DNA from: an uncultured Clostridium sp.
GTDB taxonomy: Bacteria > Bacillota > Clostridia > Oscillospirales > Oscillospiraceae
Length of the DNA: 40,153 nucleotides
NCBI GenBank assembly: GCA_904420465.1
Contig: CAJFVL010000010.1
Location: forward strand, 1-40,153
Direction of reading: 5' to 3'
Shown piece by piece: positions 14,213 to 18,937 of this stretch (its first letter is position 1; every line of letters starts with the position of its first letter). Position numbers and translations under genes: made by a program. The notes beneath the pieces were generated by a model, which had not been told where the DNA came from, did no database searches, and worked only from the letters and a program-made list of their open reading frames with translations.

Positions 14213-14583
14213 TGAAGGGAAGCTCCAAGGAGGAAACACATTCGCCTGAAAAATTACGATTACAGCCAGCCGGGAGCTTATTTTGTCACCGTCTGCACCG
14301 AAGGACGGCGAGAGTTGTTCCCTTTTACCGTAGGGACGGCCACATGGGGCCGCCCCTACAGGAAGCCGTTGGCTGGTACAAGGCCATGATGACAAATCAA
14401 TATATACAGAGCGTAAAAGCGGGGGAATTGCCCCCATTTGAAAAACGACTTTGGCAGCGGGGCTACTACGACCACATCATCCGGGATGACAACGACTTTC
14501 TGGCCTGCTGGACCTGCATTGACCAAAACTCCGCCCGGTGGGCGGAGGACGAATATGCTCCGGCGGGCCGGGCGGAGGGATGA
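14213..14583 (+). pseudogene. Broken REP-associated tyrosine transposase (RAYT, Y1_Tnp)
   Basis: Two pieces of a RAYT are recognisable in different frames. The N-terminal piece (from about 14228, frame starting 14222) reads RRKHIRLKNYDYSQPGAYFV..., the family's N-terminus. The C-terminal piece (about 14370-14583, frame +1 of 14212) reads WQRGYYDHIIRDDNDF and ARWAEDEYAP, the family's C-terminus. The middle with the His-x-His metal motif is missing, and a REP palindrome (14330-14359) sits at the break. The gene cannot make an active Y1 HUH transposase. It lies 20 bp after smc, and the end touches the next small gene. Intact RAYTs mobilise REP elements, several of which occur in the next 5 kb. 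Confidence 0.85.
14330..14359. repeat. REP palindrome inside the RAYT relic
   Basis: GTAGGGACGGCC (14330-14341), 6-nt loop, GGCCGCCCCTAC (14348-14359): 11 of 12 pairs. The core matches, in reverse complement, the REP-like palindrome at 18938-18960 (about 19 of 22 bases). Confidence 0.75.
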
Positions 14584-15208: not shown

Positions 15209-16078
15209 ATGGGTTTCTTTGACAAGCTGAAAAAGATCAACATTTTCGCCTCCTTCGGCTCAGAGCTGAACGATGACTTCTACGACGAGCTGGAGGAGTC
15301 CCTGATCCTGGCGGATACGGGGATGGACGTGACGCTGGAGCTGGTGGCCGAGCTGCGCCGCCGGGTAAAGGCGGAGGGGATCAAAACCCTGGAGGACGCC
15401 CGCTCCTGCATGTGCCGCGTCATCGCCGACGCCATGAGCGTGGGGGAGCCGGGGCTGGACCTGTCCACCCGCCCCTCGGTGGTGCTGTTCATCGGGGTGA
15501 ACGGGGTGGGAAAGACCACCACCATCGGCAAGATCGGCGCCCAGCTGCGCCACGAGGGGAAAAAGGTCCTGTTCTGCGCGGCAGATACCTTCCGGGCCGC
15601 CGCCGCCGAGCAGCTCACCATCTGGTCCGACCGGGCGGGTGTGGACATCGTCAAGCAGCACGAGGGGGCCGACCCCGCCGCCGTGGTCTTTGACGCCATG
15701 AGCGCCGCCAGGGCCCGGGGCACCGACGCGGTGCTGGTGGACACCGCCGGACGGCTGCACAACAAGCAGAACCTGATGAACGAGCTGAACAAGATCTCCC
15801 GGGTCATCGACCGGGAGGGCCCGGGCTGCGCCCGGGAGACCCTGCTGGTGCTGGACGCCACCACCGGACAGAACGGCCTGGTCCAGGCCCGGCAGTTCCG
15901 GGAGGCCGCCGGCATCACCGGCATCGTCCTGACCAAGCTGGACGGCACCGCCAAGGGGGGCATCGCCATCGCCATCGCCCGGGAGCTGGGGGTGCCTGTC
16001 AAGTACGCCGGCGTGGGCGAGGGCGTGGACGACCTGAAGCTCTTCGACCCCATGGAGTTTGCCCAGGCGCTGATCTGA
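15209..16078 (+). CDS. ftsY: Signal recognition particle receptor FtsY
   Basis: 289 aa: the NG GTPase core with a very short N-terminal extension, lacking the acidic A domain of E. coli. G1 loop GVNGVGKTTT at about 96-105, DTFRAAAAEQL (G2/G3 region), DTAGRLH (G3), TKLDGTAKGG (G4) and the C-terminal GVGEGVDDLKLFDP closing motif. It receives SRP-bound ribosomes at the membrane for co-translational targeting. ATG 15209 is preceded by AAGGAAGG. Its last 58 bases are repeated 225 bp downstream (16246-16303), and part of the tail is also present inverted (16101-16116); the coding sequence itself is intact. Confidence 0.97.
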   Translation: MGFFDKLKKINIFASFGSELNDDFYDELEESLILADTGMDVTLELVAELRRRVKAEGIKTLEDARSCMCRVIADAMSVGEPGLDLSTRPSVVLFIGVNGVGKTTTIGKIGAQLRHEGKKVLFCAADTFRAAAAEQLTIWSDRAGVDIVKQHEGADPAAVVFDAMSAARARGTDAVLVDTAGRLHNKQNLMNELNKISRVIDREGPGCARETLLVLDATTGQNGLVQARQFREAAGITGIVLTKLDGTAKGGIAIAIARELGVPVKYAGVGEGVDDLKLFDPMEFAQALI

Positions 16079-16100
16079 CGGACGATACAGAGAAGGTGTG

Positions 16101-16259
16101 GGCCGTCCACGCCCTCAGCCGCCGGAGACGGCCCGGCGCTTGCGCCGTCCAAGCGTTTTGCCGGAGGCAAAACCTTGCCGCAGGGCGGATTTACTCCGCC
16201 CGAGGATTTGAATGAAATGGGTCCCCAAACAAACGAAGTTTGTTTGGGTGTGGATGACC
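16101..16259. repeat. Hairpin cassette with ftsY-derived ends (copy A, ~159 bp)
   Basis: Left end GGCCGTCCACGCCCTC (16101-16116) is the inverse of ftsY 16019-16034 (15 of 16). Right end 16246-16259 is a direct copy of the same ftsY region, so the two ends can pair (13 of 14 including 2 wobbles). Inside are tight hairpins: CGGCGC/GCGCCG near 16134-16147, GTTTTGCC/GGCAAAAC (16155-16173), GGGCGGA/TCCGCCC (16183-16201) and CAAACAAAC/GTTTGTTTG (16226-16247). The core shares GCCGGAGGC, GCAGGGCG-ATT-CGCCCGAG-AT and GGG.CCCC with the cassette after yhbY. Confidence 0.8.
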
Positions 16260-16303
16260 TGAAGCCCTTCGACCCCATGGAGTTTGCCCAGGCGCTGATC
16301 TGA
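16246..16303 (+). repeat. Direct duplicate of the ftsY 3' end
   Basis: 58 bases matching 16021-16078 with 3 mismatches, ending exactly at the TGA stop. It has no start codon or ribosome binding site of its own and codes for only a fragment of the FtsY C-terminus. Confidence 0.92.
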
Positions 16304-16309
16304 GAGCGA

Positions 16310-16337
16310 AATGCAGAATGCAGAAGGCAGAATGCAG
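16310..16337. repeat. Tandem heptamer AATGCAG
   Basis: Four units: AATGCAG, AATGCAG, AAGGCAG, AATGCAG, then decaying copies (AATAAGG, AATGAG). It directly precedes the REP pair. Confidence 0.75.
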
Positions 16338-16363
16338 AATAAGGAATGAGAAATTGCCGTTCC

Positions 16364-16454
16364 GTAGGGGCGGGTGTCCTCACCCGCCCGCCTGTCCCCT
16401 GCCGTTTGTAGAGGCGGCCCTTGACCGCCTGCGGGCGCGCACAGCGCGCCCCTA
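16364..16454. repeat. Pair of REP-type palindromes
   Basis: First: GTAGGG then stem GGGCGGGTG (16368-16376), TCCT loop, CACCCGCCC (16381-16389). Second: 16407-16454, starting GTAGAGGCGG, with inner stems GGCGG/CCGCC and GGGCGCGC/GCGCGCCC and ending CCCCTAC. The GTAGGGGCGG head is that of the palindrome inside the RAYT relic. The rest of the ftsY-rph gap up to 16590 shows nothing further. Confidence 0.75.
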
Positions 16455-16592
16455 CACACAGAAGGCGCGTCCTGCAGGACCGGGCCAGGGCCGATGGGGA
16501 CACCGGCCCCTGTATCATCTCCTGGGGCACCCCGCTGCGCCAGAAAAATTTCCTCGTTTTTACACACTATACACACATCCCGCACATTCCTG

Positions 16593-16601
16593 TGATACAA
16601 T
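16593..16601 (+). promoter_or_regulatory. Extended -10 promoter for rph
   Basis: TGATACAAT (TG at 16593-16594, -10 TACAAT at 16596-16601). No strong -35. Transcription would start near 16608, which is on the upstream in-frame ATG and so supports the later start for rph. Confidence 0.5.
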
Positions 16602-16628
16602 AACGCCATGAGAGAGGAAGGATATTCC

Positions 16629-17345
16629 ATGTCCCGTATTGACGGAAGAAGCAGCGATCAGCTCCGGCCGGTGGAGATCATCCCAAACGTCAACAAATTT
16701 GCCGAGGGCTCCTGCCTGATCCGCTGCGGCAATACCCATGTGCTGTGCACCGCCAGCGTGGAGGACAAACCGCCCCGCCACGTCCCCGAGGGGGAGGGCT
16801 GGGTCACCGCCGAGTACTCCATGCTCCCCCGGGCCAACCGGGAGCGGTCCCGCCGGGACATTTCCAAGCTGAAGCTGTCCCCCCGGTCCGCCGAGATTCA
16901 GCGGCTCATCGGCCGCTCCCTGCGGGCGGTGGTGGACATGAAGAAGCTGGGTCCCTGGAACATCACGGTGGACTGCGACGTCCTCCAGGGGGACGGGGGC
17001 ACCCGCACCGCCTCCATCACCGGGGGCTATGTGGCCCTGGTGCTGGCCCTGCGGAAGATGGAGGAGGCCGGACAGCTGAATGTGTGGCCGGTCACCGGCC
17101 AGGTGGCCGCCGTCTCCGCCGGCATTGTGGGCGACGTGCCCATGCTGGACCTGTGCTATGAGGAGGACTCCTCCGCCCAGGTGGACCTGAACTGCGTCAT
17201 GGATGACCAGGGCCGCCTCATCGAGATCCAGGGCACCGGCGAAGGACGCCCCTTCACCCTGGACGAGCAGCGCAAGCTGGTGGAGCTGTGCGCCGGGGGC
17301 ATCCGGGAGCTTCAGACCATCCAAAAGAAAATTCTGGGCCTGTAA
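16629..17345 (+). CDS. rph: Ribonuclease PH
   Basis: 238 aa, the family's usual length. RNase PH trims tRNA 3' ends phosphorolytically and helps rRNA decay. Recognisable blocks: RSSDQLRPVEI near the start, GNTHVLCTASVE, MLPRANRERSRRD, EIQRLIGRSLRAVVD, DCDVLQGDGGTRTASITG and the phosphate-binding C-terminal half, ending VELCAGGI. Start: ATG 16629 has AGGAAGGA at 6 nt; an in-frame ATG at 16608 would add seven residues but overlaps the expected transcription start. Ends 15 bp before rdgB, a pairing commonly seen. Confidence 0.96.
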   Translation: MSRIDGRSSDQLRPVEIIPNVNKFAEGSCLIRCGNTHVLCTASVEDKPPRHVPEGEGWVTAEYSMLPRANRERSRRDISKLKLSPRSAEIQRLIGRSLRAVVDMKKLGPWNITVDCDVLQGDGGTRTASITGGYVALVLALRKMEEAGQLNVWPVTGQVAAVSAGIVGDVPMLDLCYEEDSSAQVDLNCVMDDQGRLIEIQGTGEGRPFTLDEQRKLVELCAGGIRELQTIQKKILGL

Positions 17346-17360
17346 AGGGGAGAAAGAGAC

Positions 17361-17954
17361 ATGAAACTGGTGCTGGCCAGCAAAAATAAAAAGAAGCTGG
17401 TGGAGATGAACGACATTCTCTCCCACCTGGGAATTGAGGTCTGCTCCGAGGCCGAGGCCGGGGTGGACGTGGAGGTGGAGGAGACCGGGACCACCTTCGA
17501 GGAGAACTCCCGGCTGAAGGCCGAGGCCGTCATGAGGGAGAGCGGCATGCCCGCCATCGCCGACGACTCCGGGCTGTGCGTGGATGCCCTGGGGGGCGCT
17601 CCCGGGGTGTACTCCGCCCGCTACGGGGGCGAGGGGCTGGACGATGTGGGCCGCTACCGCCTGCTGCTGGAGAACATGAGGGGCCAGATGCCCCGCACCG
17701 CCAAATTTGTGTCGGTCATCACCTGCTGCTTCCCCAACGGGGACGTGATCTCCGCCCGGGGGGAGTGCCCCGGTACCATCGCCTTCGCCCCCATGGGGGA
17801 GGGCGGCTTCGGCTATGACCCGGTGTTCTTTATCCCCGGCCTGAAAAAGACCTTCGCCCAGCTGACTCCGGAGGAGAAAAACGCCATTTCCCACCGGGGG
17901 AAGGCGCTGGAGCTGTTCAAGGCCAAGCTGGAGGAATACCTAAAGAAGGGTTAG
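17361..17954 (+). CDS. rdgB: dITP/XTP pyrophosphatase (RdgB/HAM1 family)
   Basis: 197 aa, full length. It hydrolyses non-canonical purine nucleotides (dITP, XTP) to monophosphates, keeping them out of DNA and RNA. Substrate-pocket motif SKNKKKL at 7-13, the TFEENSRLKA segment, the metal-site ADDSGLCVDAL, the PGVYSARYGG loop and the FGYDPVF segment are all present, with the terminal SHRGKAL motif. It follows rph by 15 bp with GGGGAG as RBS and is probably translated from the same message. Confidence 0.96.
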   Translation: MKLVLASKNKKKLVEMNDILSHLGIEVCSEAEAGVDVEVEETGTTFEENSRLKAEAVMRESGMPAIADDSGLCVDALGGAPGVYSARYGGEGLDDVGRYRLLLENMRGQMPRTAKFVSVITCCFPNGDVISARGECPGTIAFAPMGEGGFGYDPVFFIPGLKKTFAQLTPEEKNAISHRGKALELFKAKLEEYLKKG

Positions 17955-18315
17955 GATTTGCATTTAGGTGATGGAGAAGAGGTGGCCTGCGGCCAAGCGT
18001 TCACCGCCTACAGTGTATGCTGCACCACCTAGGCACAGGTTATCTTGTAGAAGCACCTGTTTCGATTACCGAGGAGAACGGCAGTGATAAAGTTTAGACA
18101 CCGTTCAAGAGGTTGCCGCGCCGGCCGGGAATGCCAGCGAAACAGTGCAGCTCTCCTGGGTCCGGGCCCGCAGGCCCGGAGAACTTTGGCTACTTTCCTT
18201 CTCTGGAAAGTAGCCCGCCCGCAGGCGGAATACTTTTTAAAAGGAAATAGAGGCCTATCTGGAGCATCAGAGCTGGGAGGTCCTCATGCAAAAATAATCA
18301 AAACGAGGGATATAT
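17955..18315. other. rdgB-yhbY spacer full of tandem hairpins
   Basis: No gene supported. Three perfect stem-loops stand in a row: TCCGGGCC/GGCCCGGA (18161-18180), GGCTACTTTCC/GGAAAGTAGCC (18188-18215) and CCGCC/GGCGG (18215-18228), the first and third with CGCA loops. Further left, GGCC-TGC-GGCC near 17985 and a loose AGGTG...CACCT pairing. The segment GCCAAGCGTT...CGCC near 17991 recalls CCAAGCGTT..GCC in the cassette after ftsY. Likely a decayed repeat. Confidence 0.5.
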
Positions 18316-18636
18316 GTGGATCTGACAAGCAAACAGCGGGCCCAGTTGAGGGGCCTGGCCAACGGCATTGACACCATCCTGATCGTGGGGAAGGACGGCA
18401 TTGGGGACAATCTGGTCAAACAGGCCGACGATGCCCTGGAGGCCCGGGAGCTGATCAAGGGGCGGGTGCTGGAAAATTCCATGCTCTCCCCCCGGGAGGC
18501 GGCGGAGGCCCTGGCCCCCCTTACCCGCAGCGAGGTGGTCCAGGTCATCGGAACAAAATTTGTCTTATATCGTCCAAGCCATAAGAAGGATAAGAAGGAC
18601 AAGATTGTGCTGGTGCAGGATAAGAAAAAGAAGTGA
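18316..18636 (+). CDS. yhbY: RNA-binding protein YhbY (CRM domain)
   Basis: 106 aa. Single CRS1-YhbY (CRM) domain: LTSKQRAQLRGLA at the start, the conserved GKDGIGDN loop and LIKGRVLEN. YhbY binds pre-50S ribosomal particles. Start is GTG 18316 (MDLTSKQR) with GAGGG six bases before; the overlapping ATG at 18314 stops at once. The C-terminus is an unusual Lys-rich tail (KKDKKDK...KKKK). The coding bases for most of that tail are duplicated 230 bp downstream (18783-18850), and the stop codon overlaps an 18-bp inverted copy of an upstream piece of the gene. The tail may therefore have been shaped by the repeat event. Confidence 0.93.
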   Translation: MDLTSKQRAQLRGLANGIDTILIVGKDGIGDNLVKQADDALEARELIKGRVLENSMLSPREAAEALAPLTRSEVVQVIGTKFVLYRPSHKKDKKDKIVLVQDKKKK

Positions 18637-18794
18637 CAAATTTTGTTCCGATTGCCGCCACGGGCGGCCGCGCCGGGCGGCGCGTAAAATCGGAGCCGGA
18701 GGCGGAGATTTGCGCAGGGCGAATTGAGTTCGCCCGAGCATAAAAATAAGAGGGGCCCCGCGGCGGCTCTCCGCCGTGGGAGACAAAATTTGTC
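18635..18794. repeat. Hairpin cassette with yhbY-derived ends (copy B, 160 bp)
   Basis: Left end GACAAATTTTGTTCCGAT (18635-18652) is a perfect 18-bp inverse of yhbY 18547-18564. Right end ACAAAATTTGTC (18783-18794) is a direct copy of the same bases, so the two ends form a perfect 12-bp terminal inverted repeat. The core is GC-rich, with GGGCGAATT/AATTCGCCC-type pairing around 18718-18734 and GCGGCGG/CCGCCG near 18760-18777. It aligns with the cassette after ftsY in the GCCGGAGGC and GCAGGGCG..CGCCCGAG.AT segments. Confidence 0.85.
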
Positions 18795-18850
18795 TTATAT
18801 CGTCCAAGCCATAAGAAGGATAGGAAGGACAAGATTGTGCTGGTGCAGGA
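18783..18850 (+). repeat. Direct duplicate of the yhbY 3' end
   Basis: 68 bases matching 18553-18620 with a single mismatch, then about 13 diverged bases. It has no start signal of its own. The sequence in between is the 160-bp cassette. Confidence 0.93.
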
Positions 18851-18937
18851 CAAAAGGAAGGGGCCAGCGGACAAATGATGTGTCTGCCCCCGCCCGCCTC
18901 TGCGCAGGATCTCCGCGGAATGGTCCGTATCCTGTGG

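Follow-up and report, generated by a model that had tools for sequence, protein, structure and literature searches.

Hairpin elements between copies of host gene ends in Oscillospirales, with RAYT transposases as their likely partners

Introduction

How can a sequence be inserted near the end of a gene and leave the reading frame whole? The question is raised by a stretch of 40,153 nucleotides (nt) from an uncultured Clostridium sp. of the Oscillospiraceae (contig CAJFVL010000010.1, positions 1-40,153, assembly GCA_904420465.1), which is called the window here. Behind ftsY and again behind yhbY, a sequence-only reading of the window had noticed a hairpin core with an inverted copy of the gene's 3' end on its left and a direct copy on its right, and had ascribed it either to an undescribed element family or to a repair product triggered by the core. 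We find that the ftsY and yhbY insertions are members of an undescribed, general family of hairpin elements, and we consider how such elements might move. The names ftsY, yhbY, smc, rdgB, uvrB, tpiA, gpmI and eno rest on NCBIfam at one locus each; at other loci these eight genes are named by likeness, and every further gene name is our presumption from the sequence.

Two insertions with one plan

All features of the two insertions lie on the forward strand. The open reading frame of ftsY (15209-16078; NCBIfam TIGR00064, 337 bits) runs into a tail, T1 (16021-16078, stop codon 16076-16078), which is fused to the gene as its functional end. The same 58 nt recur with 95% identity, at a start-to-start spacing of 225 nt, as a second ftsY tail, T2 (16246-16303), whose end is still intact (EGVDDLKPFDPMEFAQALI, then a stop). 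Between the tails come a spacer (16079-16100), which by eye differs from the sequence 3' of T2, and a guide-like stretch, rcX (16101-16116), complementary at 15 of 16 positions to X (16019-16034), the target that spans the insertion point, with the putative cut between 16020 and 16021. Alignment and folding then place the hairpins H1 (16118-16132), H2 (16135-16146), H3 (16151-16176) and H4 (16180-16207), together 16118-16207, and the fold adds a terminal hairpin, H5 (16224-16248), whose final three bases are shared with T2.

The insertion in yhbY (18316-18636; TIGR00253, 78.9 bits against a cut-off of 78.5) follows the same order. Its T1 (18553-18636) aligns over 18553-18630 with T2 (18783-18860), that is, over 78 nt at 94% identity and a spacing of 230 nt, and the gene goes on to a stop codon at 18634-18636. 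The last two bases of this codon already belong to rcX (18635-18652), which is complementary at 18 of 18 positions to X (18547-18564), with the putative cut between 18552 and 18553. H1 (18654-18668), H2 (18670-18683), H3 (18686-18711) and H4 (18714-18741), together 18654-18741, precede H5 (18757-18780). As single-stranded DNA, both elements are predicted to fold into a stem of X with rcX that encloses the gene tail with its stop codon as a loop, the hairpins following behind; none of 200 shuffles folded equally well in either case (z -8.2 for ftsY, -6.2 for yhbY).

Gene-derived inverted and direct copies around a hairpin core were thus confirmed at both genes, and the cores are alike (47 alignable nt, 74% identity), with outer ends that differ among copies and correspond to the host gene in each case. 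Other parts of the sequence-only reading had to be refined. The direct copy exists, and it is no short end copy, amounting to 58-78 nt of gene end. The inverted copy exists as well; it mirrors the sequence across the junction between the element and the second tail, not the tail in general. Finally, the ends are not gene-derived throughout, as the element finishes at its 3' side in a conserved hairpin of its own, directly behind which the gene-derived sequence begins.

A dispersed family with repeated gene ends

Starting from the ftsY element, seven places were found in its own genome (itself included), and twelve from the yhbY element. A covariance model built from 13 copies (R1) gave 24 matches in this genome, the weakest of doubtful kinship. 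Among 60 genomes, R1 matched in 26, the own genome included, with up to at least 60 matches per genome, and at an E value of 1e-5, matches came from 30 genomes in an order-wide sample of 295. Fifteen of the 26 listed R1-positive genomes of the order belong to the same family as ours. Rfam gave no match in the window at gathering score, and on four loci only matches with E values of 0.5 or worse, far under the gathering scores.

When copies are oriented by the conserved H4, a locus usually reads gene, T1, spacer, rcX, H1, H2, H3, H4, an A-rich stretch, H5 and T2; single copies are incomplete (L005 has no H3, and L012 neither H1 nor rcX). Ninety-two of the 95 R1 matches in the fetched loci could be examined, and 67 of them have a direct repeat above the null, 40-128 nt long. 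In 50 of the 67, the second copy begins 0-2 nt past the end of the R1 match. Eighteen of the 25 matches without a repeat come from a single genome, G042, and most of the other seven score low. The repeat was also present at 15 of 20 distinct matches in a second set of four further genomes (three recorded as Flavonifractor; one is Flavonifractor sp. An112, G060). Fixed ends unrelated to the upstream gene, which would have spoken against host-specific ends, were therefore not found in general. The proposal of an undescribed family with host-gene-specific ends and a preserved frame is supported by these searches of the genome and its relatives. In G042 (L188-L203) the flanks of the copies resemble one another, as if within a larger repeat; for three more genomes of its family the R1 match counts are minimum values.

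At six loci (L176, L157, L171, L347, L350 and L351) tandem copies stand 187-238 nt apart at one target. The position behind a gene tail, as first noticed, is usual and not obligatory: one copy in the own genome (L097, on contig C61, the same place as L014) duplicates an apparent gene 5' end, presumably that of lepA, in the opposite orientation, and a degraded older copy seems to lie 3' of its T2. What looks like a spare tail can apparently also be a spare gene start.

The inverted piece is specific to the interrupted site

Counting the first base of T2 as +1, X extends from about -6 to between +6 and +20 and so straddles the T2 junction, and rcX ends directly before H1. With the targets of other elements as the null, the inverted copy is target-specific in 48 of 67 elements; in a fixed-window test, rcX reaches the 99th percentile in 45 of 67, where 1% is expected. 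In the second sample it beats every null in nine of 15 cases, and L349 and L352, which apparently share one target, each lose to one null.

The geometry is also regular. Measured from the insertion point, the R1 match starts at a median distance of 107 nt (quartiles 102-118, 5-95% range 81-163; 37 cases), even though the distance to the stop codon ranges from 40 to 114 nt in the same cases. The stop codon falls between insertion point and core in 37 of the 39 unambiguous gene-sense cases, and therefore T1 completes the gene.

Where X differs between species, rcX tends to follow it: among 15 pair-sites, which are not independent, rcX had changed to match in 11 and was unchanged in two. Likewise, pairing of rcX with its own X was better than cross-species pairing in 10 of 18 comparisons that share sequences, equal in seven and worse in one.

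Element lineages follow target genes

The 67 elements occupy 48 targets, 13 of which hold elements from at least two genomes. Thirty-two elements have a counterpart at the same gene of another genome. The nearest core lay at that shared gene for 26 of them (a tandem pair accounts for two) and at a different place of the element's own genome for two (one being a tandem neighbour). Mean core identity is 0.85 for a shared target, 0.67 for another target in the same genome and 0.66 when neither is shared. Thus, the cores cluster by target gene and not by host. Moreover, at a given gene, the same inverted copy is found again in other species.

These results bear on the idea that a template switch copies the ends anew at each insertion. 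If so, elements with near-identical tails should have the better rcX, and they do not: rcX mismatches T1 at 18.5% of positions when T1 and T2 are at least 96% identical, against 13-14% with diverged tails. Its mismatch being independent of T1/T2 identity, rcX is not a fresh copy. The recurrence of the inverted copy across species and the clustering of cores by target also argue against this idea. As a mechanism, a fork or repair event that copies the tail, folds back over X, jumps to an existing core and returns would account for inverted and direct target-derived pieces at both core ends and for the strong folding, but it is very improbable in view of the similar geometry of 37 gene-end copies, the target-specific lineages, the rcX match that is no better with near-identical tails and the association with the transposases described below, whose lineage is a better fit as partner than a repair process triggered by the core.

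Two tails at occupied sites, one in empty relatives

Which of the two tails came with the element? Read on into T2, the gene ends at a similar length in 34 of 38 cases; two of these tails are frameshifted (L110 and L161), which leaves a homologous intact C-terminus in 32 of 38. One of the remaining four, L099, ends at a contig end. T1 and T2 differ at codon positions 1, 2 and 3 in 32, 24 and 129 places, respectively (36 clear cases), so that 70% of the differences are at third positions; an example is GKRNKNAEISRRALEKLGELELS against GKRNKNAEISKRALEKLGELDLD, with a DNA identity of 81%. If T2 had been dead since the insertion and T1 under the usual constraint, 45% would be expected by our own estimate (P = 9e-12). 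T1 and T2 therefore have the appearance of gene ends that were both coding while they diverged. Because T2 is mostly intact and the differences favour third codon positions, T1 is probably the tail that arrived with the element.

L018 comes from a more distant relative, whose ftsY is 72% identical and whose yhbY insertion point is shifted upstream by about 13 nt. Its two tails agree without a difference over 51 nt and diverge abruptly beyond that, with protein homology kept, a pattern that indicates exchange with another lineage.

Empty sites are seen in two relatives (L016 and L017), where single ftsY and yhbY tails are not repeated within 500 nt (scores 6-10; the window scores 50.5 and 66). 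Nor is either tail followed there by an inverted copy of X (scores 5-6, compared with 13 and 18 in the window). The genome of L016 has no R1 match. Tail copies that preceded the core, for which such sites had been proposed as a check, were thus not found.

RAYT genes beside the elements

The likely partner of the elements is a REP-associated tyrosine transposase (RAYT; REP, repetitive extragenic palindromic). Divergent HUH/Y1 proteins with open frames of 160-282 amino acids were detected with PF01797. Their profile aligns with TnpA_REP (PDB 4ER8) across the H-x-H and Y..NP motifs (E 1.4e-12), and the best NCBIfam match of the two proteins that were scored is NF047646 (REP_Tyr_transpos). Of the 60 genomes, 24 were matched by a profile of seven RAYT proteins, A3; the matches were confined to IS200-type transposases in G011 and to fragments in G021 and G056. 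Leaving G011 uncounted as a carrier, RAYTs are found in 11 of 16 genomes with at least five R1 matches, in two of 10 with one to four and in 10 of 34 with none.

In six of the 30 loci from the RAYT search, the order gene-T1-element-T2 stands directly ahead of the RAYT gene, and in one more it stands about 600 nt away. At uvrB this arrangement is direct in G010, G014 and G022 (the RAYT gene of G022 failed the motif test and was left out of the tree) and at some distance in G031. At smc, it leads to another RAYT in G010, G025 and G026; the element there belongs to a second hairpin family, to which R1 is blind, and is built on the same plan, with an rcX of 17 nt (-5 to +12) in G025 and of 15 nt (-5 to +10) in G026. 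In G010 the best inverted match of the smc locus lies elsewhere and was not counted as rcX. The window itself has a broken RAYT gene directly 3' of smc (14222-14562, forward strand; pieces 14222-14323 and 14344-14562, the frame being lost between them), at the very spot of the smc-T1-element-T2-RAYT arrangement of these three relatives.

In a tree of 26 RAYTs, with partly supported groups, 13 of the 15 proteins in the first two groups come from genomes with at least five R1 matches, and none of the other 11 does. The association is only indicative, as the Fisher test of RAYT groups against copy number (P = 2e-5) takes no account of phylogeny and group III falls together with group II into an open group. 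Two RAYT groups adjoin two hairpin families. At RAYT loci of genomes with none or one R1 match, no direct repeat was found in L278, L282, L284-L287, L301 and L302, and L280, L292, L294 and L303 have direct repeats of another geometry. Family B, with ends ...CTTTGCG-CGACGA, has the repeat at smc in three genomes. Only four of its 26 BLAST matches have a repeat (two smc home loci and two of other geometry), and therefore we do not extend the claim to its dispersed copies. A transposase gene was not found inside the elements either, the long leaders of L096 and L148 (151-257 nt) being too short for one.

Proposed mechanism and its alternatives

From the anatomy, the target-specific pairing, the site-specific lineages, the empty sites of two relatives, the mostly intact T2 and the RAYT genes beside elements, all observed directly, we lean on balance towards non-autonomous single-strand elements that home in the manner of IS200/IS605 by means of a RAYT, with rcX as a long DNA guide and a replacement gene tail as cargo. 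The mobile unit would be T1-rcX-H1-H5, about 225 nt long, in which H1-H5 would form the landing structure of the transposase and rcX, directly 5' of the first hairpin, would base-pair with X. One cut would fall inside X, within the host gene and about 107 nt ahead of where the R1 match starts, and the other after H5; we infer cutting by the RAYT at these places because the order cleavage site, spacer, guide and hairpin is that of IS200/IS605. The excised single strand would carry the last codons and the stop codon of the gene and enter the X of an empty allele, where T1 would complete the gene and the recipient's tail would be left as T2. RAYT catalysis, the single-strand intermediate, guiding by rcX, excision and the sequence of these events are what we infer; the intact reading into T2 is compatible with seamless excision and says nothing beyond that. 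For a new target to be gained in the first place, it would be enough if the stretch 5' of H1 happened to match a sequence some 100 nt further upstream. Since X would be rebuilt at the junction of gene and T1, the site would stay open to further insertion, which fits the tandem copies; unequal recombination could also have produced these. More tentatively, we propose a DNA-guided homing element: with a strand of about 10-24 nt inside the 225-nt unit, a RAYT would locate and cut one gene, and the element would supply the replacement for the severed part.

The composition of the stems is consistent with a role as DNA. Among 2136 pairs of H2-H4, 10 are G.T and six A.C, counts that are to be read knowing that helices were chosen for Watson-Crick pairs, which hides both kinds of mismatch. 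Because these stems are almost without an excess of G.T over A.C, they look selected as DNA rather than RNA.

Several observations weigh against this mechanism. In H5, 29 of 1024 pairs are G.T and one is A.C; we read the G.T pairs as one fixed pair. The rcX test is failed by 22 of the 67 copies, and rcX and X mismatch at 13-22% over +1 to +10 and at 11-27% over -5 to -1, even with near-identical tails. Under the strictest null for the codon positions (equal changes on both tails, none tolerated in T1, two thirds at third positions), the excess is not significant (P = 0.21). Within a genome T1 and T2 are usually more alike than T1s are between species, and therefore donors would have to be mostly conspecific. 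A target left intact at the junction of gene and T1 should lead the element to re-target its own site, and tandem copies do exist. In G042, which belongs to a different family and has at least 60 R1 matches, only two of 20 examined matches have the repeat. As for the transposase, its gene lies 3' of T2, outside the putative 225-nt unit, and the two scored proteins (68.7 and 73.2 bits) stay under the REP_Tyr_transpos cut-off of 80. RAYTs occur in 10 of the 34 genomes without R1 matches, and were not found in five of the 16 copy-rich genomes (G001, G011 with IS200-type only, G030, G036 and G042), some assemblies being incomplete, nor in G062 (11 R1 matches); G060 (29 R1 matches) has a single weak match of 21.9 bits. 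Moreover, no movement of an element was observed.

Local duplication of the target is the strongest alternative, though we regard it as unlikely. Nicks about 80-110 nt apart, or a nick with repair synthesis, would double the tail as in target-primed retrotransposition, and rcX would either have guided the inserted nucleic acid or have arisen by snap-back copying. The 3' junction is indeed precise and the 5' side more variable, some copies have identical tails, and the greater likeness of T1 and T2 within a genome would follow directly. However, the reverse transcriptase domain PF00078 was not found in G000, G001, G009, G018, G019, G022 and G042, all with at least nine R1 matches (some is present in G010, G011, G014 and G016), and this explanation fits neither the third-codon bias with its mostly intact T2 nor the scarcity of G.T pairs in H2-H4 (10 against six A.C). 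A model of reverse transcription proper, suggested by the precise 3' and variable 5' ends, was dropped on account of several copy-rich genomes without PF00078 matches. A TnpB guide was also considered and dropped: PF07282 was not found in G000, G018, G019, G022, G028 and G042 and is present in some other genomes (IscB was not searched), weak PF07282 matches in two loci being to what we take to be AccD. RNA guides in general were set aside given the barely raised G.T count of H2-H4.

We think it quite improbable that the elements are old, vertically inherited 3' hairpins with a role in mRNA termination or decay, whose tail repeats arose by unequal recombination and gene conversion. Occupation of the same genes in several species, the tandem copies and the stop codon ahead of the core would suit such hairpins, but their presence is patchy (26 of 60 genomes), two relatives have empty sites, H2-H4 are not RNA-like, and the L018 tails, identical for 51 nt and then diverged, point to exchange between lineages.

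Relation to known systems

The guided, tail-carrying elements proposed here resemble the REP, BIME (bacterial interspersed mosaic element) and REPIN sequences that form REPtrons with RAYTs, as they too are dispersed short intergenic hairpin repeats, with an HUH/Y1 gene beside a copy in some genomes. They differ in being longer and multi-hairpin, in having gene-tail copies on both sides and in forming one-target lineages. Moreover, 5' of the first hairpin they have a target-specific stretch of about 10-24 nt (rcX) and no fixed GTAG; of the 13 aligned copies, most have GCAG as the conserved foot of H4. According to the relevant passages of PMC8266576, RAYT hairpins carry a tetranucleotide tag, and the mechanism of REP dissemination 'remains to be elucidated'.

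In IS200/IS605 elements, the cuts are set by a tetranucleotide guide that lies 5' of the hairpin foot and is paired with a conserved tetranucleotide of the target, as outlined in passages of PMC6006769 and PMC8266576. Our elements share with IS608 and ISDra2, as portrayed there, single-strand hairpin ends and a stretch in guide position that is complementary to the putative cleavage site (45 of 67), whereas the guide is 4 nt long there and about 10-24 nt here. IS200/IS605 elements also carry their own transposase; the 225-nt unit is without one, the RAYT lying 3' of T2. IS200/IS605 elements are not known to carry a host-gene tail.

Homing elements such as introns and guided Tn7-like transposons use conserved sites in conserved genes and keep the host gene working. 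Our lineages are likewise specific to conserved sites in conserved genes; in contrast, neither a nuclease nor an RNA guide was found, and the gene would be preserved by the carried replacement tail. Miniature inverted-repeat transposable elements (MITEs) and target-primed retroelements are also short, non-autonomous and flanked by direct repeats. Unlike MITEs, the elements described here have no fixed terminal inverted repeats, their outer ends vary by copy and match the host gene, and their repeats measure 40-128 nt; unlike for target-primed retroelements, no RVT_1 reverse transcriptase was found in several copy-rich genomes. In the sections of the CC-licensed PMC literature that we covered, REP elements with a carried gene tail or a long guide are not described.

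The target, both tails and the pairing stretch are preserved at tens of insertions, which makes the rules of recognition and cutting directly testable. If rcX guides an HUH transposase by long DNA-DNA pairing, it would constitute a natural programmable system of single-strand targeting. For a mobile element, a replacement tail would, if true, be an uncommon means of residing in essential genes, which it could enter without cost and leave without trace. The family may also show how a widespread class of bacterial repeats, the REP type, moves.

Other observations

Three consecutive glycolysis genes, tpiA, gpmI and eno, have one element at each 3' end in L148 (8340, 10238 and 12262); judged by the inverted copy, the eno target seems to be used also in G060 and G061 (L349 and L352). 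In the own genome, the leader ahead of the core of L096 (1340-1500; target ACACGACC) holds an end of the second family, GGACTTTGCGACGACGA, a composite reminiscent of BIME mosaics. In the window, the gap between rdgB and yhbY (17955-18310) contains about 300 nt of repeat-like sequence that ends in a frame (KEIEAYLEHQSWEVLMQK, then a stop) resembling the rdgB end KLEEYLKKG, and is possibly another insertion with a tail copy. Part of it is similar, by eye, to what flanks a family B copy (L277, contig C9) in the own genome.

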